Shown in pieces: positions 1,760 to 60,133 of a stretch of DNA of 64,000 nucleotides. The notes beneath the pieces were generated by a model, which was not told where the DNA came from, ran no database searches, and saw nothing but the letters and a program-made list of their open reading frames with translations. A program made the position numbers and the translations under genes. The stretch lies in assembly GCF_009730915.1 (NCBI RefSeq), contig NC_052475.1, positions 31,309,016-31,373,015 of the forward strand, written 5' to 3'. Source of the DNA: Dioscorea cayenensis subsp. rotundata. Taxonomy: Eukaryota; Streptophyta; Magnoliopsida; Dioscoreales; Dioscoreaceae. Position 1 is the stretch's first letter. Every line of letters begins with the position of its first letter.

Positions 1760-2625
1760 GTTTGATATGGAAAAATTTCTCTTTACCCCCAAGAGTGTCA
1801 AGACTCAAGGTAGAATTAAAGAAATTATGAAAAAAATTTCTCGCTACTCCCCTAGAAAATCGAGACTTCATAGTGGAATGAGAGAAATTTATAGAAAATT
1901 TCTCGTTACTCCCAAGGAAGTCAAGACTCATAGTGGAATGAGAGAAATTTATAGAAAAATTTCTCGCTACCCCAAGGAAGTGAAGACTCCATAGGAATGA
2001 GAGAAATTTATAGAAAAATTTCTACATCTCCCAAGAAAGCCAAGGCTTCAGTGGAATGAGAGAAATTTATAGAAAAATTCTCGTTACTCCCAGGAAGTCA
2101 AGACTCATAGTGGAATGAGAGAAATTTATAGAAAAATTTCGTTACCCCAAGAAAGCCAAGGCTTCAGGTGGAATGAGAGAAATTTATAGAAAAATTTCTC
2201 GTTACTCCCAGGAAGTCAAGACTCCAGTGGAATGAGAGAAATTTATAGAAAATTTCTCGCTATCTCAGCAAGTCAAGACTCCAAGGTGGAATGAGAGAAA
2301 TTTCATGAAAAATTTCTCGTTACTCTCCCAAGAAAAGCCAAGGCTCGAGGTGGAATGAGAGAAATTTCTAGAAAATTTTTCGCTATCCCCAAGGAAGTCA
2401 AGACTCATGGAATGAGAGAAATTTCATGAAAAATTTCTCGTTACTCCCAAGAAAGCTCAAGGCTTCATGTGGAATGAGAGAAATTTATGTAAAATTTCTC
2501 GTTACTCCCAGCTGAAGTCAAGACTTCAGGTGGAATGAGAGAAATTTCATAGAAATCTCGTTACTCCCGAAAGAAAAAAGCTTTTAAGGCTTCATGGTGA
2601 ATGAGAGAAATTTCATAAGATTTTT
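1760..2625. repeat. Minisatellite, ~60-bp unit, about 13-15 copies
   Basis: The unit is about 58-62 bp. It contains GGAATGAGAGAAATTTATAG, then AAAATTTCTCGTTACTCCC, then a variable AAGGAAGTCAAGACTCA-type segment. Clear copies begin near 1877, 1936, 1995, 2053, 2113, 2171, 2230, 2289, 2351, 2409, 2471, 2536 and 2600, with more diverged units before them. Each unit contains the self-complementary arms GAGAAATTT and AAATTTCTC separated by only a few bases, so every unit can fold into a small hairpin. Copies differ by substitutions and 1-3 bp indels, and two alternating spacer types (AGTCAAGACT and AGCCAAGGCT) are seen. No coding role is evident. Confidence 0.9.
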
Positions 2626-17059: not shown

Positions 17060-18865
17060 TTATTAAAATAATAATATGTTTTCAAATATATAAAAATCAA
17101 TTAAAAAAATAAATTTAATAAAATATTTATTAACTTAATCAATTGTTTTAGTTTAAATATTTTTCAAGAAAATATTAAATGTTTTTTATGAGATTAAATA
17201 TTTAAATATTTTTATTTAAATATTTATTTGAATGGAAAAGTAATTTTGAAAAAGTTTGAGGGTATTTTAGTAAAAATAATAATTTCACTTTCCTTTCCCA
17301 TAGGATTATGACTTTCCCACTTTATAAGGAGGGAATCACTTTTCCTCAATTTGATAGAATTACTTTCATATAGCAAAATTACTTTCCAGAGAAAAAAACT
17401 CAACCAAACATGGTAAAGTAATTCCTTTGTATTATTTTTAAAGAATAATTATTTTCACTAAATAATTTTCCCATCTACCAAACACACCCATAAGGTGATG
17501 ATCTAGAGGTACAGTTTCGTGATAATTGCCGTAGAATCTAGATGTATAATTTTTATTATTTGATCATCTTAATTTAATAATTTCTTTGTAAAAAAACAAC
17601 AAATTATTTTTATTTTATATACTAAAATAAATACTAAAATTTATAAACCTATGGTTGTGAGTGGACCATGTCTACTATAAAATAATGTTCATGGGCTCAT
17701 TATTCCTGAATATCTAAATATAGTATTAAAGACCTTAACCTTAGCATCATCTAATTAACCACAACTTCAGAGATATTTTTCAAAAGATTAAATAAAAAAT
17801 CATTTAAATAATTAATTTTTACTTAAAATTATAAATGAAACTAAAAAAAATAAAATTATCAAATATTAGATTTTTATAAATATTTTTAATACTAATTTAT
17901 AAATACAAAAAGTCACACAGGTAAAAAACCAGAGGTATCATATAAGTATTTTTTTTAAAAAAATTCTAAAGCATACCTACTAGGTTAACTCAAAAGGGTG
18001 GATACCATAGATCCATATGAATATTTTTTTTTATATATATATAAAATATAATATTTTTAAAATATATAAAATAATATGTATAAAAACCATAACAATTGCA
18101 ACAACATCAAGAATTAGACGTAAGAAAACCAGTCACAAGTGACACCCAAGAGAGACATCACTGTAACATCATTTAGCTGTTTTGTTTTTCCTTTTCTTTC
18201 ACTTTATTCCAACAAAGGATTGGTTTGATTTTACTAAATTAATATATTTTAATGCCATGTTGTTTAGATTTATTTTGTTTGAATAAAATTATTTCTTAAA
18301 TTTTAAATCTTGAGAAAATAGATCCACTCCATTTTACCAAGCAGCAATAATCAGACTCTAAAATCAAACTAATTAACCCACATATATTAATTTAATATTG
18401 GGTACCTTGTTTGGTCTAATAACAAACCTCTTTTGTGTTATATTAGATTTTAAAAACTAACATATTGTAAGTTTATATTTATTTTGAGTCAATTATTCCC
18501 CAAAATCAAGAGTATTTAGCTAAGCTACAACAACCCTGGACATAGTTTCACCCAAAAAAAAACACACACACAAAAAAAAAAACTACCAGTTAAAATCAAT
18601 CATTGATCATATATTCTTATAATCCCTTTTAATCATAAATATTAATTAACTAATATTTTCGTTTTAAAAATTAAAAAAATTTAAAATATAAGATAACGCA
18701 TCTTCTAGATCAAATCACAAATAATAATAATAATAATAGTAATTAATAAAAATTTCTTTTACATTTGTCCGCCAAACCCCAACGGTAATAAAGGGCATTT
18801 TCGGTATCTCAGGCTCACAAAATTTTTGAAAAAATGAGAGTGAGAGAACGGCTGTTCATTCTCCA
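17060..18865. other. AT-rich intergenic region upstream of the MAPKKK gene
   Basis: Divergent spacer between the PDH E1 alpha gene and the MAPKKK gene. I see A/T homopolymers and (AT)n stretches but no coding segment or RNA gene. The last few hundred bases contain the promoter of the downstream kinase gene. Confidence 0.5.
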
Positions 18866-32318: not shown

Positions 32319-32519
32319 AAAAAGGGAAAATTACTGTTTACCCCTCGATAATTTCAAAACTTCCCAAACAGCCCCTGTGAGTTTTGCATACCTCAGACAA
32401 CCCTTCCTTTATTGTTTCACTTCCTTTTTACCCCCTGCATTATGAAATTCCATCATTGCCCTTAAACCTTTTTGCATACATTTTTTTCATTCTTTTTTGC
32501 ATTCCTTTTTGCATGTACT

Positions 32520-32920
32520 CATTTTTTAAACAAAGAATTCATTTCTTAAACAGAGAGTTCATTTCTTAAACAGAAACCTCATTTCTTAAACAGAAAACTC
32601 ATTTCTTAAACAGAAACATCATTTTTTTAAACATAAAACTCATTTTTTAAACAAAAACATTAATATTTAAACAGAAAAACAAATATTTACATGATAAATT
32701 AATCCTGGATATAAAAACCAATTAATCTTGGCCACTCGTACATATTTAAATAGAAACAACGATATTTAAGCACTTTTTTTAAAGCGTAAAGCGCAATATA
32801 TTAAGCGAAACATCGATAGTTAAACAAAGACAAACAAGCGTATAAAGCGAGAACTCATTTCTTAAGCAGAGAGCTTATTTTTTTAAACAAAGACCCTCAT
32901 TTTTTTAAAGCGAAACCTCA
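32520..32920. repeat. TTTAAACAGA-type motif array in the short MULE
   Basis: A run of about 20-25 bp units of the form CATTTCTTAAACAGAAA(A)CT, with variants TTTAAACAAA, TTAAGCAGAGA and TTTAAAGCGAAA. The same units return at 33440-33600 and 34220-34510. They fill the non-GC-rich parts of the element. Confidence 0.85.
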
Positions 32921-34091
32921 TTGAGTAGGGGACATTGAGTATCTCATCGTCGTCGATCTCGCGTGAGCGGCTGAGTCGCGAGCTCCGGATCCGGGCGAGC
33001 GATCTCGAAGGTGGCGTGCTGCGTGTGGGGTCTTAAAGGAGACATCTTTATTAGGGCGTTGGCGATCCGATTGGCGGCGTTCCTCGGCGGTCGGAGTGGT
33101 GAGGTCTTCGGTGGCGACGTCGGATAAGACAGGGTCGAACTTGAGCGGAACCATTCTCGATTGCGAGACCGCAACATGGATAGCAATAAGGTTAGGGTTA
33201 GGGATCGTTCGGGGTTTGGATCCAGTGGTGCCTAAGTCGGTGGCGGGAGCGGAGGGAGGAAGCGGTGCCGAGTGAGGGGTTCGATCTCGCCGTCTTCGTC
33301 TTCATCTTCATCGTCTTCCCTGTCGTCGACCTCATCTCTTTCATCTTCTTCGTCGTCGACCTCGGGGAAGACCGCGATGCTCCCTCGTCGTCGAGCGAAG
33401 GCATCAAAAGGTTGCACTCGTACGTATTTAAATAGAAACAACGGTATTTAAGCACTTTTTTTAAAGCGTAAAGCGCAATATATTAAAGCGAAACATCGAT
33501 AGTTAAACAAAGACAAAGAAGCGTATAAAGCAGAGAACTCATTTCTTAAGCAGAGAACTCATTTCTTAAAGCAGAGAGCTTATTTTTTTTAAAGCAGAGA
33601 CCTCATTGAGTAGGGGACATTGAGTATCTCATCGTCGTCGATCTCGTGCGAGCAGCTGAGTCTTGAGCTCCGGATCCGGGCGAGCGATCTCGAAGGTGGC
33701 CTCGCTCGTGTGGGGTCTTAAAGGAGAAAATCTTTATCGGCGTTGGCGATCCGGGTTGGGCGACGTTCCTCGGCGGTCGGAGTGGTGAGGTCTTCGGTGG
33801 CGGCGTCGGATAAGAGCGAGTCGAACTTGAGCGGAACCATTCTCGACTGCGGAGACCGTAACATGGATAGCAATAGGGTTAGGGTTAGGGATCATTCCGG
33901 GGTTTGGATCCATGGTGCCTAAGTTGGTGGCGAGGAGCGAGGGAGGCGGCCGATGAGGGTTCGATCTCGCCGTCTTCGTCTTCGTCTTCATCGTCTTCCC
34001 ACGTCGTCGACCTTATCTCTTTCATCTTCTTCGTCGTTGACCTCGGGGAAGACCGCATGCTCCCTCGTCGTCGGCGAAGGCATCGAAAGGT
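32735..34091. repeat. ~678-bp direct duplication inside the short MULE
   Basis: Copy 1 runs from about 32735 to 33412 and copy 2 from about 33413 to 34090. Both begin at CACTCGTACNTATTTAAATA, contain the TTAAAGCGTAAAGCGCAATA block, and carry a GC-rich core with GGATCCGGGCGAGCGATCTC and a GGTTAGGGTTAGGGATC segment. Both finish before AAGGTTGCAC. Copies differ by substitutions and many 1-3 bp indels. On the minus strand the cores encode an acidic EDEDEDGEIEP-type stretch in one frame. Confidence 0.8.
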
Positions 34092-34776
34092 TGCACCTTT
34101 TTCTCTGAACATGAAATCCCATTTTTCATGCAACGTGACCATGATTGTGAGTCGCATGCTTTTGTCTCATCTGGCCCGATCCAATCGTAATAAAGAGATT
34201 TTGGGGTGATAAATACACCACAAAAAAACTCATTTCTTAAACAGAACTCATTTTTTTAAACAAAACCCTCATTTTTTTAAAGCGAAAAACTCATTTCTTA
34301 AATAGAGACCTCATTTTTTAAAGCGAAACCTCTTTTCTTAAAGCAGAAAACTCATTTCTTAAGCAGAAAACTCAATTTTTTTAAACAAAAAAACTCATTT
34401 TTTTAAATAGAAAACTCATTTTTTTAAAGCAGAAAGCTCGTTTTTAAAGCAGAGCCTCATCGCTCGTATTTTTAAATAGAAAGCTTCGTTTTCAAATAGA
34501 AACTCATTGTCCTAGAGGCATTATAGTCAAACCCTGTCACACTTGCCATAACTTCCCATGAGGACGATTTCGTCCAAAAAAATTCAAAATTAACTCTATC
34601 AATCACTATTAGATGTTTGGGGGTTTAAAAAAATCATTTGTATTGAAAAGGAAGGGGTTTTTGAGGGTCTAAAACTAGAGGGTGTTTTTTTAGCGATATC
34701 GCATAGCTTTCAGGTGTTTTTGGCAATTTCCACTTATTATTATTATATAATCAATATATATATATATATATATGCG

Positions 34777-49556: not shown

Positions 49557-50500
49557 TTTTTGGAAAAATTCTGTTCACCCCATCGTAATTTTTCAAAACT
49601 TCACAAAAACCCCTCCTACTTTTTACACACCACGGACTGACCCTTCAGTTAGTGTTTAACTTCACTTTTACCCCTACAGTTCACTTCAAATGGGTCAGTG
49701 TTGTGAAATCCCGATTTTTAGTCCCCGAAAATGGTGGGAAAGGAAAGCGCAAAATCACGTCATGTTCGACCTTTTGAAGGGCTTTCTAGCTGGTTTCGAT
49801 GAGACAATGCCGAGGAGTTACATTACATCTTGTTGTTCTCCTCATTATCATACACGAAATATATAAATCGGTTTCTCGAGCAGAAAATGAAATTGATTTC
49901 CATCGGATTGGTCGAAGTGCACTTCATCTTCAAATGAGTACGTAGTCGATTTTTATTGTCGAGGCGAGCATGTGCCATTGTCGTCTTCTCGTTTATGGTT
50001 GTAAAGTTGTATTCGACGAGAAGAACGATAATTACTGACGAGTTCATTTTCGTTGTAAAGTTCTTCTCGTTTATGGTTATCTATTTGTATATTTTTAAAT
50101 AATGTTTAACTATTTGCTATTATCCGGGTTTAAATATTTTTACTAATATGTTTAATAATTGTCATATCCAGTTTAATACTTCCCATCTCAGTTTAACATT
50201 ATCTTTACATGTATAACTATTCATAAAGCGTGTAAATTCTCAAAAGTCTCTGCGTAAAAGCGGTGATCTTTTTCGTTTGATCCGAATTGTTGGCATGTGG
50301 CGCGTGGCGGTGCGAGGTTATGGTATCCCGTGCGTGAGAATTAATGGCGACATTAATTCTTATGCCGCGATAACTCAAATCTCCGAACACCCGATTCGTT
50401 CTCATCGATCGATGTCGACATCTGTGCGTTTAACTTTTTCTCGGATACGAAGAGTCGACTGCTTGTGGACTTCACGCATAAATAACCGGGGAAGAACCCT

Positions 50501-50862
50501 CCCCATGGACAACCACTCCTCGTCGTCCTCATCATCCTCCTCCTCCTCCTCCTCCTCTTCCTCCTCTTCCCAGTGGGACTGACCACTCTATCACGAAAGG
50601 ATGTTTCGTGAGCCTTCTTCCTTATCTTGAGAATCGATTAGCCGTAGTCACCGAACTAGTTAAACTATCTTTTTCACGCCCTGAGCGAAGTCCTCTCATA
50701 ATTGCACGAATGCGGAGGATTCTCCAGTGGTGGATGACGGGAAAGCAATTAAGAAAGCATTTTCGACTTGGGTATGAAAAGAAAGTTTTTCACGTATTGC
50801 GTGATTGCGGAGGATTCTCAGAGGAGGAGATCGTGAAACATCCTTTAAAGACTCGGGGTTGA
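50501..50862 (+). pseudogene. Coding-like segment of unknown function in MULE 5' half
   Basis: After a Ser-rich start (MDNHSSSSS..., from a (TCC)n run) the frame ends, and a second open frame at 50608-50862 follows (LPYLENRLAVVTELVKLSFS, then FRLGYEKKVFHVLRDCGGFS). I do not recognise the product. It lies between two motif arrays and may be an exon of an accessory protein of the element or a captured host fragment. Confidence 0.35.
50517..50572. repeat. (TCC)n microsatellite
   Basis: Imperfect TCC/TCT trinucleotide run of about 55 bp inside the large MULE, coding for polyserine in one plus-strand frame. Confidence 0.85.
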
Positions 50863-52358
50863 CATTTACCACTGAGACTTTTACGTTAGCGTTTAAGAAA
50901 ATGATGTCGGGTGTACAAGCTATTACGTTACGTGTTTAACTACTCGGGATCGTCGTTTTAAGTCCTACCATGACACATTGATTAATAGTCGTTTTTCATG
51001 AATGTGTGTTGTTTAACCTTTTTTTAATGTTATACGTTTTGCGGGTTCAAGTTGATGCGCTTGTTATGCAGACGGCGTGAGCGTTCGAATGTACGGGACA
51101 CTTGTTTCAGTTATCACGGGTCGAGTCGTGAGTGTCCAAAGTCCGAGCGGACGTTGTAAATGTTGTAAATGTTGTAAATCTTTGTAAATGTTGTAAATGT
51201 TGTAAATCTTTTATAAATAAAAGCGAAACAATCGTATTTGATTTGTGAACTTACGAAATTTAAGCAGAGACCTAGTAAAAAAACAATGTGGGAAACAGCG
51301 TCATTGTAAACAATAGAAAAAAAGTTAAACAATACTCAAGTTACTCTTTAAACAATGACAACGGTGTTTAAGAAAATACGTAAATATGTTTAAAGCAGTG
51401 ACCCGGGGAGGTACCCATCTAGCAGCGCGATGTCGATGAAAAGCATTCGATTTAAACAATAACATATTATTTACATGATATAGACTTTTAGTTAAAGCAG
51501 TTAACCGTTATTTTAAACACTATATGTATCTGTTTAAACATAAAAAGCTTGAGCGTTTACACGAGACTCATGTTGAGTTGAGAACTTTCATTCGAACGAT
51601 GACAACATGTCTTCCTCGCGACAATGACATATATTTCCCTTTTTGCCCTTGGGATGGAGGAAAAAATACCGCCTAATCACATCACGTCTAGTCTAACCTC
51701 TATGCATACAAGCTATGCACTTTTTTTGTTTGCGATTACGATTGCTATTTGTTCTTTACATCTTCTACTTCTTCTTACGTCATCTTCGTTTTTGTTCTTC
51801 ATTTCATTTTGGTTTTGTATGCGATTTGGTTTTCGAGCCGATATATTATGGAGAGTTTTTGTGGTATTGCTAGATTCAGCGGGGAGGGAAGAGTGCTAAT
51901 GTTCACGGCTCGAGACTTCTTGGGGAATTGGTGTTAGGTGAGATATGTGAGTGATGGGGTCTCGAAGTTTCTCTTGTCGAGGGTTAAGTTACATCACACG
52001 GATGGATATAAAAGCGGTTTTGCCCAATAGAAAAGCGATGTTGACTTCCATCGGATGTGTCACGTCCACTCCATCTTCAAATGTCTTTGTAGTTGATCTT
52101 GTCGTCGAGACGGAAAAATGTGCCATTGCGAATCCTAATGAAAAGCGAGGGTTTTACTCGTTGTAAGTTCCTTTTCTTTTAATTATTTCGAGTTGTGCAG
52201 GGGTCATTTATTGTTTAAATATGTCCGTCATCTGGTTAACATATTAGTACTAGTCCTTTACGTTATTAGTTAATTGTTTAAGTATTTAATTTAACGTTTA
52301 ACTATTGTCATTATCGCTTAAACATTATATTCTCAGCTTAACATATTGATCTTTTCAT

Positions 52359-54390
52359 TTGAGTGAAGTGTTGGCGGGGAATTCGATTCTGCGAGTGCTC
52401 CCATTCATCCCCGATGGTGACCACGACGGTGTGGGATGTCTTCCTTCCTCGTCGGATCATTACGAAGTGTTGTCGTTGGATATTGGTCAGCGTTTTGTGC
52501 AGTGTCGAACATTTTCGAGGGATGTACTTGAAATCATGCGATCAAAAGGAATTTTTGACTTCAAATTCATAAAGAGCGAAAAAAACATCGGGTGATCGTG
52601 GAATGCTGCTGCTGAGTGGTTGTCGTTAGGCGCCTCATGCATCAAAAGAGTATAACAAAAAAATACTTTCGGAATCAAGACAATCAACCCGTCACACACT
52701 TGCGGTGGTGGCATAGGTTCGTCGCATCCAAAGCGTCCAAAAATGGGTTAAGCGCACGAGTGATTCGGAAGCTCGAGGGACCGTCCCTTATGCAAGGCCG
52801 TCGACATTCGGAAGGACATGTTGCGGGAACATGGTGTCCACATACCATACAAGCGAGGGCTTGGTTGGGAAAAAGAGCATGCGGGTGGTCCTCGGCGGCG
52901 GTGACATCTCCGGCTATGATTGTTTGCTTTGGTATGTGGATAAGGTGGGCGAGACAAATCCGGCGGCGTTGCGATCGTGGAGAGGGCGGTGATCGTTTTA
53001 AAGCGTGCATTCTTTTCTTTTCGGTAGCGTGTATTGTGGGATTCGAGAGGGCTTGCGGGCGGCTGCTGTTTCTCGATGGTACCCACCTCCTTGGAAAAAT
53101 ATCGAGATACACTCTTTGGGTGCCACGAGGAAAGATGGTAACAATGGTTTTTCCACGTCGCCTTCGGTATGAGTCGACAACGAGACCCGATGCCAATTGG
53201 ACTTGGTTCGTATCTAAGTTGGGCGATGCCTTATCACGAGGGTGGAGATTATCATGAGATAATTACCTTCGTGTCGGACAGGTCCGAGGGCCTTGTGAGC
53301 GCAATTGCGAGAGTCTTCCCTTCTTACGCCACATGCGTCTTGTCTTCGACATTTGGAGCCAATTTTATGAAAGCCAATGTCGGACTTGGGAAGGCATTGA
53401 GGGAGGAGTCTTTGGTCATATGCTTCCGCATTGCGTGGGCATCCACGGCTAAAGATTTCGATGATACTCGTGAATGAGCTGCAGGCCGTATCACCCGAAG
53501 CTCATCATTTGGTTGATTAATAAATCGGATATGGCACATTGGTCGAGATTATCGTTCGGAGGTGATCGTTGGGGTGAGATGTATTCGAGCGTCGCGAGTC
53601 GATCAATGCTTGGATCAAGGAAGCTCGTCATTCTACGGTGTGAAAATGGTCGACTCCATAAGATGCAGTGAATGTTGATTTACACTTAACATTTAGTATT
53701 ACCCTTTAAACATTCTCAATCTTTGTTTAATTACACTTTTCGACTTTTAAATATTAATCATTTCGTTTATTTAATTACAATAATGTTTAAACATGTTGAC
53801 GAATTATTTAACCATCATCTGTCTTTGTTTTAACCTTATTTTTCGAGGTTCAAGTTGATGCGCATGTTATGTAACGGGCGTGAGCAAGCGACCAAAATGG
53901 GAGACCTACTTATGCCCGGACATACATTCGAGGTTAGAGATCATTGTTGAGGACGGTCGAAATCTTCGTGTTGGTCGTTGTGTCGATGATCGATTCTGAG
54001 TGATCGACCAATCGAGCAACTCCGTGGATCTCGCCATCGAGAACTTGTTCGTGTCGAAGGTGGCAAGTTTATGGTATCCCTTGCGAAACATGCTTGCAGC
54101 GACTAATGCGAGCAGAACACCAGCGTACATCGATTTATGAGCGGGTACTTCACGTCGACAATTACAATGGCGTACAAGGAAGCTATATTCCCCATGCAAG
54201 CGATGGCAGGGCCTTGAGGCGGAAATCGTGAGCTTCGTTTGCGACCGCTTTGTGACTAGAAAGGCGACTAGGGCGGCCTAGAGCGAAAAGAGGATCGAGT
54301 CGCATGGCGTTTGATGTCATGAGTTACATTGCGTGACTGCCGAGGATCGGTCACGATCGGCGATCTTCTGATGAAAGCTGTCGCCGACTA
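52359..54390 (+). pseudogene. MuDR/MULE transposase (mudrA-like), frameshifted
   Basis: A degenerate DDE transposase of Mutator-like elements. Near 52480-52600 the N-terminal MuDR DNA-binding type domain is visible (DIGQRFVQCRTF, GIFDFKFIKSEKN). At 53000-53600 the catalytic MULE domain follows (ACIVGFERACGR, LLFLDGTHLLGK, DANWTWFVSKLGDAL, ITFVSDRSEGLVSAIARVFP, NFMKANVGLGKALREE, WLINKSDMAHWS). An intron-like motif array interrupts at about 53670-53846. After it come the SWIM zinc finger (CSCRRWQVYGIPC near 54040-54095) and remains of a zinc knuckle near 54330-54372. The frame shifts many times by single bases, yet the residues between shifts are well conserved. Intact relatives are about 700-900 residues. 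Not translatable as written. Confidence 0.85.
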
Positions 54391-55039
54391 GGCATTGTTA
54401 ATAAACCGAGCGATGACGGAAACATTGTGTATTTATAACTGAATTGAATGTATTTACGCGGAGACATTGTTATTTTAAAGCGGATACACTGTAATTTGAA
54501 ATATTTCAGCGATGTTTAAAGCGATATATGGTATATTTAAACAATGAAAGCGGAAATGTACACAACTACAGACGTAAATTAAACAATGAAATGGACCCGA
54601 ATGAAATTTAACCGCCTTTACAATTGAAAACAAACAAAATTTACATTGAAATATACAAGTCATGTTCTTGAAAACAAAAACAATGAATTGAATTGTGTAT
54701 TGATGGGCAACTTTCCATATTTAGTTAAACAATAAATGCATTCATTTAAACAGAGAAAGTGTTATTTTACGGTACACCGTGATTTGAAATATTTAAAAGC
54801 GATGTTTAAGCGATATATACTATATTTAAACAATGAAAGTGAAATGTACACAATCACAGCGTAAATTAAACAATGAAATAAAACCGAATGGAATTTAACC
54901 CGCTTTTACTGATTCAAAACAAACAAAAATTTACATTAAGATATACAAGTCATGTTCTTGAACACGAAAACAATGAATTGAATTTGTCAGATTTACATTT
55001 GAAAACAAAATTGACGATCGGATATACTAGACATGTTAT

Positions 55040-55790
55040 TCAGCAATTTAACCCGCTGGCGACCCCCTTTGTCAGTGAGACTGGCGCCTCCCTCCTTAAG
55101 TATCGCGGGTAACATACCGTGTCTGAGGTAAGGCGATGCATGCTGCGGTGGCCGTAACTTCTCACCCCTACGAATGGTGCTCGATAAACCGCATGGCGTA
55201 GGGCGGCGCAATCGGCGCTTCCTTGTTTTGGGCGTGGGGTTTACGTAGCCGTGCTGACGGGTGCTCTTGTCGCCGACTCGCCTAACTCCATATCGACACA
55301 AAGGTCGAATAGATTCCATTGTCGAGATATGCAAGTCGAGATTAGAATACCGATTTAAATACCAAAGCGAGATATTAATCGGACATAATTAAAGAACTTA
55401 CCATGTCCAACGCGTCCTTATCGTACCGGACATGAAGAATAATGCACCGTATTCTTGTTTATCATTGTCGGAGACGACGACATGGAAGTGGCCATTCATG
55501 ATTACTCGGGAGGATGACAATTTGAACTTCATGCGAGGTCTGCGCGAGCATCCCCGATCATAGCCATAATTGTGTCATGTCGTCGTCTCGCTTTGACATA
55601 AAGCAGTAAGCGGTCGATGATGAGGCGCGCTTCTTGTAAGGATATGGCTCTTTGCTCAGCGACTTTTGTATTATGCATCGAAAGCGTCCCATCACATCAT
55701 CAGTGACCATCTCGCTTCCCCTCAAGCGTGTATAACCTCGTGCGTGTAGTGCTGGCAATCGTCGTTCTTCCACACGATGCTCGAGGTTAA
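55040..55790 (-). pseudogene. Ulp1/C48 SUMO-protease-like domain, frameshifted
   Basis: On the minus strand, pieces of a C48 cysteine protease catalytic domain are readable across frames. First comes a DDVMGRFRCIIQKSLSKEPY piece near 55700. Then MNGHFHVVVSDNDKQEY (55499-55449) carries the expected catalytic His in a hydrophobic strand followed by Asp. A LCVDMELGES piece lies near 55300, and GSADCA with a shifted YAMRFIEH lies near 55215-55180, where the catalytic Cys of the family lies. This order (His, Asp, Cys in GSxDCxxYVMRFIE) matches ULP genes carried by plant MULEs. At least two frameshifts and several stops break it. Further coding-like minus-strand pieces between 56000 and 58980 may be its 5' exons, but I could not assign domains to them. 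Confidence 0.72.
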
Positions 55791-55989
55791 ACGATATAAG
55801 ATATTAGAAGACCATATTGTAAATATTTAAATGATATTATCAATTGTTACATGATATTATATATAATTAAGCGGTAAGGCGAAAACTTAAATGATAACAT
55901 AATGGTATTAAACACTATTAGGTAATAGTTAAACACTATAAGAAACCCTTTAAACAATATCATAAAAAGCGTTACACTTACCCGTCCAT

Positions 55990-58250
55990 AGGCGGTTGAG
56001 GAAGATCCTCATCAACTCCTCGCTCGTATTTGTTAAAGACGACTCGAGGCCAACCCATTTCTTCTTCTTCGGAATAAAAAGCTTTCCGAGACAGTGCGTC
56101 CAATTTTTGATTGGCCTTGATCATCTCTCTCGTTGCTCGGTCGGGGTCTTCATCAGCATCTTCCTTCGATCGCGGGGGACGATGGCGGCAAGCATCAGCT
56201 CATGACACGATCCTTACATTGTTGTTCTTGTTGTGGGATTGTGTCCCGGCTTCGATCTTGAGGGACGACGAGCGGCAGACATCAACAGCGAGACACTTCC
56301 TTACATGGTTCTTGTTGTGGTGGGATTGTGTCTGCTTGGGCTGCTGATCTTGTCGCGCGGCCACGCGATAGCGGATTCGACGATCTTCTCAACCGTGGCA
56401 CGATGACGAGCATCATTGGGAGACACACCCTTAACTTGTTCTTGACCTTGGGGATTGTGTCCGTCTTTGATGCCGCGATCTCGAGCGGCCGGTTCCAGCG
56501 GGTCGGCTATTTCATCGAGAAGAAGTCAGCGACGCTTCTCAGCCGGCGTAACGGCCACATCGTCTCGATGTCCTCCAGCGTCGTAGCCATGTCATCAGCG
56601 GCGGCAGGACTCGATACTGACATCGGCAGCCGATGGTGTTGCTATTGTTTCATCGTCGGTCGACGGTGGAGACGGAGGCGATATGTTCTCCTCTTTTTCG
56701 CAAGTCTCTTGAATGTGGCCGCCTTGGAAACGACCTTCCGATGATGTCGCGTGCGTCAGTCGGCGCCTCGTTCGTCCCGGGTGCTTCGGTTCTTTCGAGG
56801 ATGGCGTGGCCGGTTGTGAAGCGTCCTTCCGGCGCCTCCACCGACGAGCAAGCAGGAAACTCGATCGTCAATATCTCGCATGCTGCATAAGAGTTGCGGT
56901 GACATCTTACGCGCAATGTCACCGGGTGGGGACTGCCACGTCGGAAGGGCTGCCGTGGTCGGGGGACTCGTCGTTGTCGTGGTAGGGGGTTGTTGCTGAT
57001 CGTACGGGGTAGGGGAGGGCTTCTCCGGCGTCGAGGAATGCGTCTGTGCGTGGTGGGGTGGAAGTAGGAGAAAAGGGCGTCCAGTCAGCATGCGATGAGT
57101 ACGCCCTCGTCACCGCCTTGAGCAGTGGTTCGGGAGCGATGGCGTCCATCCGTCGGTTGGCGCTTCAACAAATATTTCTTCTTCGACGATTCACGGGAAC
57201 CGACTCAGAAACTAACATATGTAAACCAAAACAATTTCAGTGAGATCATTCATTTTAAACTATAAAAACTATATATTTAAAGCGTTATAGAATATAATTA
57301 AACCCGGAGAACAAAAATATTTAAAGCGAGTTATGAATAATAGTTAAGCAGTAAATACTAAAGTTAAGCTAAATAAAATGTTTAAACATTAAGACTTATA
57401 TTTGAGACATTGTCCATGATTTATTACCTCTTTTCCATCGAGCGATGACAAGCTGGTTTCTCACAAAGTAACACTTGCTTAGGTAAGTACTTTCACCGTG
57501 GCACGACATCCTTGGGATCTTCTGAAATCGGACTTTCTTCCCCGTCGACTCGACTAGAAAAACCAGACGTTAAGCGCGGCAAGCCACCCTATAATGTACC
57601 TTGTGTTGATCTTCACGCTACGCATCTATCTTGCGCTCGGGCGGACGCTTAGTGGAATATCCTCCATACAGCCACTTGTCGCGTGCATCGCGCCATGCGT
57701 GTCGCCCATGCTCGGTAGATCATCGACGTAATCAGCGATCCGATTCGGAACCGAGCGTGATGTATTTGGGAAGAGGGGCCCGTCGCCAGGGTACGCATCG
57801 GGAGTTTGACAAAAATTATCTTCTTCTCCCTCAGTCGAGACAAGTTGCCCCTGAGTGCTCTTGATGGAGTCTCTGTGTCTCTCGTGAGGTCTTTGATGAG
57901 ATCACAGAGCCTTGAGCGACCGGTTTTTCTTCTTCACGAAGACGCATCGCGTCGCCATCGCAGACGGAGCAAGAAGGGCGCACATCTTGAGGTGTCGAAA
58001 CTCAGCGAGGCTTTCCCGATCCACGAATTTTATTGGTGCGACCATCGACACTTCTGCGAAAAAGAGAATCAGAAGGGGCCCTCTCTCGGTATATGAGCTT
58101 CCAGCTCGATGAAGCAGCCGCAAGCGGTGTCCTTGAATAATCTCCCGAGTGTCGAGGGTCGTGTTAACTTTCAATTCGGGCTAAGGTCTCCACAGCCGTG
58201 TCAAATAGCAACGCCCGTTAACTAGGGTTGACCGCCAGTAATCACAAGCC
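55990..58250 (-). other. Coding-like, unassigned part of the large MULE
   Basis: Near-balanced base composition and overlapping open frames on both strands suggest decayed exons, most likely the N-terminal part of the minus-strand ULP gene. No family signature could be read. It is interrupted by a motif array at 57240-57420. Confidence 0.35.
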
Positions 58251-58722
58251 TGCTGATGTTGACAAAAGTTTAGCGGAAATATAAGGTTTTAAGCGGTGAA
58301 CTCCTCGATTATTAAAGCGGAGATATAAAATGTTAAAGCGAGACCCATTTTGTTAGCAGAGCGAGAATACTTAAGCAGACAAGCAAATGTTAAAGCTGTA
58401 ACATCTCGTTTCTAGCGTCGACCTCGTTTGTAGAGCGCAACTATATCAAAGCGAAGCGGAAATGTACGTTATAAATATTATACAAAATCATAACAATCGA
58501 AAAAACTATTTCGATGGTGTATCATCGAAAATGCAGAACAGCAAAACCCTAGCCAGAAATCTCCTCGAGACTAACAAAACCCCGGTAGAAATCCCCTCGC
58601 GACTTCGATATCTTCCAGCAAAAAGCAGGGAGCACAAAAGCAAAACCGAAAAAAATCTTTCTGTGTAGAGCGAGTTAACGTAAAAACCATCACTAAATCT
58701 GTGATTGCAAAGCGATGAAATG

Positions 58723-58980
58723 CTACAGTAGTTGCTTGACTTCTCCTTCGAGAGTATCTGGGTGGAAGGGAAAAAGGCGATGAAATGCCAATTCTGGAGG
58801 CTTATGGGTAGAGAACGACGGAGGCGAGCGGAGAATGGAAAAGGGCGAAGGCGTGAGTTGAGAAAACGCGATTAAGCGAGCTCCGATAGAGATTCGTCTA
58901 CCGAGGGTTCTGCCTGAGGAAAGCCCAACACTCTCAAATCGCCAGAGATCAGTGCCGTGCGACTCACATGCAGAGGGCAT
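58723..58980 (-). other. Possible first exon of the ULP gene
   Basis: An open minus-strand frame starting ATG near the outer end of the element (MPSACESHGTDLWRFESVGL). Its place, about 150 bp inside the right terminus, is where the first exon of the inward-facing gene would lie. No homology recognised. Confidence 0.25.
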
Positions 58981-59133
58981 TTTAAATTATTTGGCTCATA
59001 AAGTTCACTCAGATTCTGGCGGTTTGGGGTTTGAAAAACGTAAAGCTTTTAAAATGACGAGGGTTTTTGGGGATTACTTAGTCACGTGTTTTTGTGATTT
59101 CTGGCTTAAAGGGTTTTTGGCAATTTCCACTTT

Positions 59134-60133
59134 NNNNNNNNNNNNNNNNNNNNNNNNNNNNNNNNNNNNNNNNNNNNNNNNNNNNNNNNNNNNNNNNNNN
59201 NNNNNNNNNNNNNNNNNNNNNNNNNNNNNNNNNNNNNNNNNNNNNNNNNNNNNNNNNNNNNNNNNNNNNNNNNNNNNNNNNNNNNNNNNNNNNNNNNNNN
59301 NNNNNNNNNNNNNNNNNNNNNNNNNNNNNNNNNNNNNNNNNNNNNNNNNNNNNNNNNNNNNNNNNNNNNNNNNNNNNNNNNNNNNNNNNNNNNNNNNNNN
59401 NNNNNNNNNNNNNNNNNNNNNNNNNNNNNNNNNNNNNNNNNNNNNNNNNNNNNNNNNNNNNNNNNNNNNNNNNNNNNNNNNNNNNNNNNNNNNNNNNNNN
59501 NNNNNNNNNNNNNNNNNNNNNNNNNNNNNNNNNNNNNNNNNNNNNNNNNNNNNNNNNNNNNNNNNNNNNNNNNNNNNNNNNNNNNNNNNNNNNNNNNNNN
59601 NNNNNNNNNNNNNNNNNNNNNNNNNNNNNNNNNNNNNNNNNNNNNNNNNNNNNNNNNNNNNNNNNNNNNNNNNNNNNNNNNNNNNNNNNNNNNNNNNNNN
59701 NNNNNNNNNNNNNNNNNNNNNNNNNNNNNNNNNNNNNNNNNNNNNNNNNNNNNNNNNNNNNNNNNNNNNNNNNNNNNNNNNNNNNNNNNNNNNNNNNNNN
59801 NNNNNNNNNNNNNNNNNNNNNNNNNNNNNNNNNNNNNNNNNNNNNNNNNNNNNNNNNNNNNNNNNNNNNNNNNNNNNNNNNNNNNNNNNNNNNNNNNNNN
59901 NNNNNNNNNNNNNNNNNNNNNNNNNNNNNNNNNNNNNNNNNNNNNNNNNNNNNNNNNNNNNNNNNNNNNNNNNNNNNNNNNNNNNNNNNNNNNNNNNNNN
60001 NNNNNNNNNNNNNNNNNNNNNNNNNNNNNNNNNNNNNNNNNNNNNNNNNNNNNNNNNNNNNNNNNNNNNNNNNNNNNNNNNNNNNNNNNNNNNNNNNNNN
60101 NNNNNNNNNNNNNNNNNNNNNNNNNNNNNNNNN
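59134..60133. other. Assembly gap, exactly 1,000 N
   Basis: The round length indicates a placeholder gap. It starts directly at the right terminus of the large MULE and ends inside a Ty3/gypsy element, so the adjacency of the two elements is unproven. Confidence 0.98.

Follow-up and report, generated by a model that had tools for sequence, protein, structure and literature searches.

Nine noncoding blocks of a large Mutator-like element (MULE) of the yam Dioscorea cayenensis subsp. rotundata, and three stretches of a short non-autonomous relative, carry the core (G)TTTAA every 20–21 bp. Both elements lie in a 64,000-nucleotide stretch of contig NC_052475.1 (positions 31,309,016 to 31,373,015 of the forward strand), which is called the window below and is numbered from its first letter. 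We think it rather probable that the blocks are arrays, specific to the family and phased to the helix, on which the element's own anti-silencing-type (VANC-like) protein docks. The arrays are phased, excluded from exons and mostly uniform in orientation, the partner gene has, in relatives of the element, the VANC domain type, and related groups have different motifs; by analogy with the VANDAL elements of Arabidopsis, we infer that the protein of this second gene binds the motifs and that binding removes silencing marks. The element and its arrays are:

49562..59131, strand not assigned: large MULE, limits from the ends shared by copies; a 1000-base assembly gap begins at 59134
50085..50220, plus strand: array B1, from shuffle test, core counts and spacing
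50870..51030, plus strand: array B2, the weakest, from the same three kinds of evidence
51260..51560, minus strand: array B3, the strand being that of the majority core orientation
52190..52350, plus strand: array B4, from shuffle test, core counts and spacing
about 53650..53850, plus strand: array B5, at the transposase intron (placed from translation), 8 sites, 6 of 7 spacings regular
about 54390..55060, minus strand: array B6, in the spacer between the 3' ends of the two genes, 11 sites on this strand and 10 on the other
55779..55980, minus strand: array B7, in a second-gene intron, 6 of 6 spacings regular
57201..57420, minus strand: array B8, in the intron on the 3' side of the DUF1985 exon, 6 of 7 spacings regular
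58241..58470, minus strand: array B9, on the 5' side of the DUF1985 exon, all 4 spacings regular, few intact GTTTAA cores, a clean counterpart in relative L035

An earlier note on this DNA had described such arrays in the nine blocks and in the short relative, to be discounted if their density equalled that of shuffled sequence or if other copies lacked them; neither is so. Three patterns per block were compared with 500 dinucleotide-preserving shuffles (with slightly narrower limits for B5, B7, B8 and B9), which serve as the composition control because the coding parts are richer in G+C. The core lies above the shuffles in all twelve blocks, the better of the two oriented core patterns giving p 0.002–0.004 in 11 of them and p 0.03 in B2, and one of seven coding stretches (57430-58240) reaches a nominal p of 0.036. 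Counted over 20 copies of the element, noncoding DNA (63,794 bases) holds 800 core sites (397 GTTTAA and 403 TTAAAC) and coding DNA (88,950 bases) holds 3, with a further 42 in 28,546 bases assigned to neither; if the second-gene half of copies L020 and L027 is excluded, the figures are 799 sites in 61,792 noncoding and 2 in 86,215 coding bases. The regular spacing that the note had put at 15–25 bp is likewise present, its actual value being 20–21 bp with skipped units: 71 of the 90 successive same-strand [TC]TTAA spacings in the window are 18–24 or 38–46 bp (300 mononucleotide shuffles give a mean of 2.5 and a maximum of 8). Chains of at least four sites occur at nine distinct places in the whole window, eight within the two elements and one at 17152-17220, and these appear as 11 output lines because two short-relative arrays are found on both strands, the core being near-palindromic. 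A simple microsatellite, which the note had also set aside, was rejected as the main account, since the unit is 20–21 bp long with drifting flanks. The statement that every noncoding spacer is built in this way is too strong; few or no sites are found in the left 330 bp (0–1 per copy) and right 660 bp of the element, in 50221-50869, 51031-51259 and 51561-52189, and in the small intron near 55346-55400.

One orientation, by density of GTTTAA versus TTAAAC, dominates eight of the nine blocks (plus in B1, B2, B4 and B5, minus in B3, B6, B7 and B8), so that GTTTAA runs in the gene sense in the blocks assigned to introns. Same-orientation arrays thus lie in noncoding parts, away from exons, with orientation uneven in B6 and unreadable in B9. 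By eye the core consensus is CTCTGTTTAA or GTTTAAAYATT; expectation-maximisation modelling of a 21-bp motif yielded no informative logo. Inside B6, 54452-54694 and 54744-54984 form a direct duplication of ~245 bp (offset 290 bp, 85% identity).

The host is taken to be white Guinea yam, a monocot, in agreement with two matches in the genome. Both primers of the D. rotundata sex marker sp16 (PMC5604175) match exactly and once each, facing one another, between 1,499,867 and 1,500,128 of contig C11, and that paper assigns the sp16 region to pseudo-chromosome 11; and for two exons of a carbonic-anhydrase cluster on contig C14 the best PDB match is dioscorin 5. The 584,211,761-base genome, searched with window 53600-54400, gave 2007 candidates, of which the best 40 (the window included) were scored and are 86–100% identical to the query. 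Twenty copy stretches (L009–L028) were taken and 19 of them aligned with the window. The left match to the window starts at 49557-49583 in 20 of 20 copies and the right match ends at 59127-59133 in 14 of 20, the others stopping earlier; the matching pieces are 80–93% identical. Copies begin with GGGAAAATTACTG / GGGAAAATT and end with GGCAATTTCCAC. As in VANDAL-type MULEs without terminal inverted repeats, none was found in the window element beyond a best inverted match of 10 bp (E 0.066, at chance level). Target-site duplications of the ~9-bp size of the MULE superfamily are present among the 13 copies examined: exact 9 bp in L009 and L010, and in L028 nine exact positions inside a 12-bp match with one mismatch. 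They are imperfect or doubtful in L011, L015 and L018, and none was seen in the other seven copies, two of which have incomplete flanks (N to the left of L026, a short stretch to the right of L017). The genes are:

52360..53647, plus strand: transposase, MULE-domain stretch, frame broken in the window copy, splice limits inferred
53847..54390, plus strand: transposase, SWIM zinc-finger stretch, with a PF04434 match
57421..58240, minus strand: second gene, PMD/DUF1985-type exon, judged from relatives
55981..57200, minus strand: second gene, linker exon or exons, an open frame in copy L012:6586-7497, matched in L031, L035 and L036
55061..55778, minus strand: second gene, C-terminal exons, Ulp1/C48-like, from relative L054 and copy L020

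The plus-strand gene is, by its domain matches, a MULE transposase with a SWIM finger: the MULE transposase domain PF10551 that defines the superfamily is found in copy L027:3372-4307 (E 5.6e-19), and the SWIM domain at window 54004-54228 (E 1e-5), in copy L020 (2.1e-10) and in L024. A Pfam scan of the window's own broken frames gave SWIM alone above cut-off, with neither a MULE domain nor DUF1985. The 150 scored MULE-domain places (the best of 3312 candidates) all exceed 100 bits, above the 52.7–68.9 of the element's own family, and were not used. Within the transposase stretch examined, open frames are longest in copies L020 and L027; these two carry unrelated sequence, through truncation or replacement, where the DUF1985 exon and its arrays align, and array B8 is missing from both. 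Toward its 5' end the large element contains repeated pieces of the transposase gene, next to its arrays (49893-49980 versus 52041-52128, 51019-51082 versus 53825-53885), which look like a decayed second copy. By eye, L054 2905-3120 resembles the 3' intron of the second gene, array included, placed within the transposase region.

Domains of the second gene are read from relatives because the window copy is frame-broken. DUF1985, the domain of VANC proteins, is above cut-off in relatives L031, L035 and L036. In L036, PMD gives 1.3e-13 and DUF1985 5.5e-10 with stops read through, and an open piece gives 1.6e-10 and 1.7e-10. The exon of copy L009 is 41–53% identical in amino acids to those of the three relatives. 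DUF287 has no match in the pieces scanned, none of which is an intact full protein. Between copies other than L020 and L027, substitutions per site amount to 0.154 in the DUF1985 exon, 0.133 in the linker, and 0.064 and 0.083 in the two transposase stretches; an earlier value of 0.236 for the DUF1985 exon was inflated by the unrelated sequence of those two copies. The DUF1985 exon is thus more divergent than the transposase exons, and in VANDALs VANC is less conserved than VANA (PMC5735166). An AlphaFold model of the DUF1985 exon from 19 sequences has a mean predicted local distance difference test score (pLDDT) of 39.5.

Corresponding introns of related DUF1985 genes carry different words on a similar grid. 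A genome search with DUF1985 gave 455 candidates, the best 150 of which were scored (all E <= 0.001), and 25 loci were examined, eight from the search and 17 picked for spread, their introns being cut at fixed offsets from the domain. They fall into seven groups at 75% nucleotide identity, two of them single-locus. Group A (8 loci) comprises the relatives of the element, L031, L035 and L036 matching it at 71–77% nucleotide identity and the other five joining by clustering. GTTTAA occurs in sense at 91 sites in 3,680 bp of group A introns and at none in 2,760 bp of group B introns; TGTGTA occurs 47 times in B introns, 10 times in the single C locus and never in A; and group D (3 loci) has CACTTAA-type sites, 10 in 1,380 bp of intron. 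The different motifs found at the corresponding introns outside group A are TGTGTATAAT and CACTTAA, and A, B with C, and D differ from one another as related VANDAL families do. In group A, sense versus antisense GTTTAA is 36 versus 4 in the 5' intron and 55 versus 17 in the 3' intron, part of the antisense count arising because the palindromic GTTTAAAC adds to it. In these introns 76 of 102 spacings are at 19–22 bp (shuffle mean 0.6, maximum 3). Autocorrelation at lag 20 has z 6.1–7.4 in the 5' intron of each of the eight group A loci, with lower and less regular values in the 3' introns; the B locus L032 reaches 4.9 and the D locus L044 6.6, and L041 (C) has 6.7 at lag 40 and 3.8 at lag 20.

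The short relative carries the same core in an element of other sequence:

32325..34738, strand not assigned: short non-autonomous relative, from 5' alignment and common 3' end
about 32515..32930, minus strand: array S1, with the reverse-strand unit TTTCTGTTTAAGAAATGAGT
about 33420..33610, minus strand: array S2, from Tandem Repeats Finder (TRF) and spacing
about 34215..34510, minus strand: array S3, from TRF and spacing

Its 5' end aligns over 114 bp (75% identity) with 49562-49674, its 3' end GGCAATTTCCAC is, by eye, that of the large element, and blastn between the two gave no similarity outside the 5' end. TRF finds the 20–21 bp unit at 32517-32678 (8.1 copies), 33526-33607 (3.9) and 34225-34445 (10.6), and TTTCTGTTTAAGAAATGAGT resembles the intron-1 units of L035. 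An array query of the genome gave 1130 candidates, and the best 40 scored, itself included, are 93–100% identical, which indicates that the short relative is numerous and little diverged. If docking sites can be used in trans, a motif-rich element that lacks the second gene is to be expected. Within the short element 32733-33417 and 33415-34096 form a direct duplication of ~690 bp (91%), and match positions suggest a third such unit in some of its genome copies.

The favoured mechanism is as follows. The second gene, with its PMD/DUF1985 domain, linker and Ulp1-like end, would encode a VANC-like DNA-binding protein that recognises a family-specific core, around the consensus given above. Spacing of 20–21 bp, or two helix turns, would place successive molecules on one face of the helix and raise occupancy, and binding in introns and spacers would release the element from silent chromatin long enough for expression and movement. 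Motif-bearing non-autonomous copies would be released in trans, an own motif for each MULE family would keep the release specific, and exons would be free of sites because coding constraint excludes them.

Such a system has been described. In Arabidopsis, VANDAL elements carry motif arrays in introns and in noncoding DNA between genes and at the element ends, to which their own VANC, an anti-silencing protein with DUF1985, binds; VANC21 binds YAGTATTAY and VANC6 binds AGTTGTCC or AGTTGTAC (PMC5735166). The view of the earlier note that such arrays are without precedent among described MULE families is therefore mistaken. Among the meanings it had offered, a silencing-related array fits best, recast here as putative docking for an anti-silencing protein. 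Like VANDAL21/Hiun and VANDAL6, the yam MULE lacks clear terminal inverted repeats and has further genes besides a transposase (PMC5735166; PMC10398659). It also shares with VANDALs a DUF1985 protein, a dense same-orientation short motif in introns and spacers that is rare in exons, other motifs in related families, and motif-bearing elements that do not encode the protein (AT9TSD1 there, the short relative in yam). It differs in its monocot host, in its cores (GTTTAA, TGTGTATAAT and CACTTAA against YAGTATTAY and AGTTGTMC), in a domain that also scores as PMD and in its almost motif-free ends, and the yam system is known from sequence alone. The likeness is one of layout and domain, and membership of the VANDAL clade is not claimed. 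Ulp1-bearing VANC genes exist, their Ulp1 capture being dated to the monocot-eudicot separation, and KIU/Kaonashi VANDALs, described in eudicots, likewise combine motif arrays with a second gene that has an Ulp1-like domain (review PMC13317346); they differ in that the yam match is marginal. PMD genes, often antisense, occur in MULE-Monocots, MDR, MUDRAVI2 and half of VANDAL members (PMC6446971), and Ikeda et al. speculate on a use of PMD in anti-silencing (PMC5418596), with no motif arrays described in the passages of these two papers that were consulted.

Neutral minisatellites, built up through slippage and unequal exchange in unconstrained noncoding DNA and bound by no protein, are the best of the other explanations and in our judgement an unlikely one. 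The short-relative arrays are tandem repeats of 20–21 bp with a within-array non-core identity of 0.63 (S1) and 0.56 (S3), B6 contains the duplication noted above, and slippage is probably the process that multiplies units in any case. Eight arrays were compared, six of the clean element L035/L054 and two of the short relative; core identity is biased because sites were picked by core, and spacing is free of that bias. Between the six arrays the 12 positions after the core agree at 0.29–0.42 (expectation 0.31) with the phase retained, and within two L054 spacers at 0.34 and 0.38, that is, near chance, while core and phase are common to the arrays. Short-relative arrays agree with L035 intron 1 at 0.53 and 0.45 and with each other at 0.58, and comparisons otherwise give 0.27–0.37. 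DUF1985 groups with different cores and nearly the same period are also hard to place under neutral slippage. Our reading of these comparisons is that slippage supplies the units, and that core and phase would then be retained.

Docking for a host factor, activating or silencing-related, in place of the element's own protein is in our judgement very unlikely: each second-gene group with an array has its own motif, which speaks for a protein of the element that co-evolves with it. Internal transposase binding sites, another meaning offered in the note, we regard as highly improbable. The transposase has a SWIM zinc finger and the motif is common to the autonomous and the non-autonomous element, but almost no sites lie in the left 330 and right 660 bp, the expected place of transposase action, and sites at the element ends were rejected for that reason. 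The third meaning, a purely intronic repeat, was rejected as well, since arrays occur in the spacer between the two genes and in the short element; and a role of the sites in RNA, aiding splicing or termination of element transcripts, which several intronic and mostly sense arrays would suit, is as improbable as transposase binding, for the same reason and because corresponding introns have different cores in different groups.

Several observations weigh against docking arrays for a VANC-like protein. Core conservation between loci is only weakly above that of random blocks, since of 300 random placements each 35 (A 5'), 19 (A 3'), 18 (B 5') and 133 (B 3') equal or exceed the core, a weakness that would suit minisatellites. 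Phase is looser outside group A, where spacings of 19–22 bp number 20 of 66 in B, 6 of 18 in C and 4 of 15 in D; in group B 24 of 66 spacings are overlaps at 2 bp, and the shuffle maximum is 1 in B, C and D. Groups E, F and G (7 of the 25 loci) have no array of the three motifs, with z at lags 20 and 40 of at most 3.3. The words are not wholly confined to their own groups: GTTTAA turns up in B exon (8 sites in 4,542 bp), D introns (4) and C (2), the group D pattern in A introns (9) and F introns (3), and TGTGTA in F introns (4) and in D (1). No transposase was found in one 2.2 kb stretch beside the group B locus L032, and groups B–G are known as DUF1985 loci alone. In the element itself, [TC]TTAA orientations are about equal in B6 (11 and 10 sites), B9 has few intact cores, and neither the window's broken exon nor the two copy exons scanned match DUF1985. 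The Ulp1-like match (PF02902, Peptidase_C48, L054:720-1217, E 3e-4) is barely above cut-off at 21.1 bits versus 20.7, and the piece in copy L020 is under it (E 0.043). Finally, the divergence of the second gene may be due in part to miscalled bases.

Cytosines in CG and CHG contexts look miscalled in 49562-59131 and L009–L028 (C to GC and similar), CHH being mostly spared. In the 20 copies TTAAA?C is written TTAAA?GC in 116 of 191 CHG, 322 of 559 CG and 21 of 1329 CHH contexts. The same change is found in 0 of 49, 12 of 37 and 2 of 92, respectively, in eight clean relatives, so that some CG-context forms may be real, and in 2 of 25 CHG, 0 of 11 CG and 23 of 147 CHH contexts in the rest of the window. 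Among trinucleotides of L027, CAG is retained in 18 other copies at 7% (n=360), CTG at 27% (n=324), CCG and CGG together at 56%, others with CG at 70% and the rest at 79%. This suggests base-calling error at methylated cytosines of copies that could not be polished, in a yam assembly that we take to be nanopore-based. Many AAAGCGA/AAAGCAGA variants are probably such miscalls, as are many of the degenerate TTTAAAGCGA/TTTAAAGCAGA units by which the arrays had been described. If so, the copies are methylated at CG and CHG and hence silenced, the assembly understates how well the motif is kept, and assembly errors might act as an indirect methylation map of unpolished repeats.

At somewhat less than even chances, we suggest that monocots have their own sequence-specific anti-silencing, with at least three kinds of yam DUF1985 gene (A; B with C; D) that differ in the motif set on a ~20 bp grid in the corresponding intron, and that the VANC type either predates the monocot-eudicot split or arose twice from PMD/DUF1985 MULEs. 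No published monocot case of such arrays or of motif-addressed anti-silencing was found in a search of mostly open-access literature. Sasaki (EMBO J, 2022) reportedly treats motif sequence, density and helical periodicity, with an origin in eudicots. If the suggestion is right, transposon-coded, motif-addressed removal of silencing would be a wider feature of DUF1985/PMD transposons and no speciality of Arabidopsis or eudicots, and yam would offer several natural motif-protein pairs at corresponding introns in which reading of the motif by the protein is directly testable. The ~20 bp grid common to groups with different motifs argues for a geometric rule.

Distant from the element, window 1772-2568 holds a 59-bp tandem repeat of 13.3 copies.

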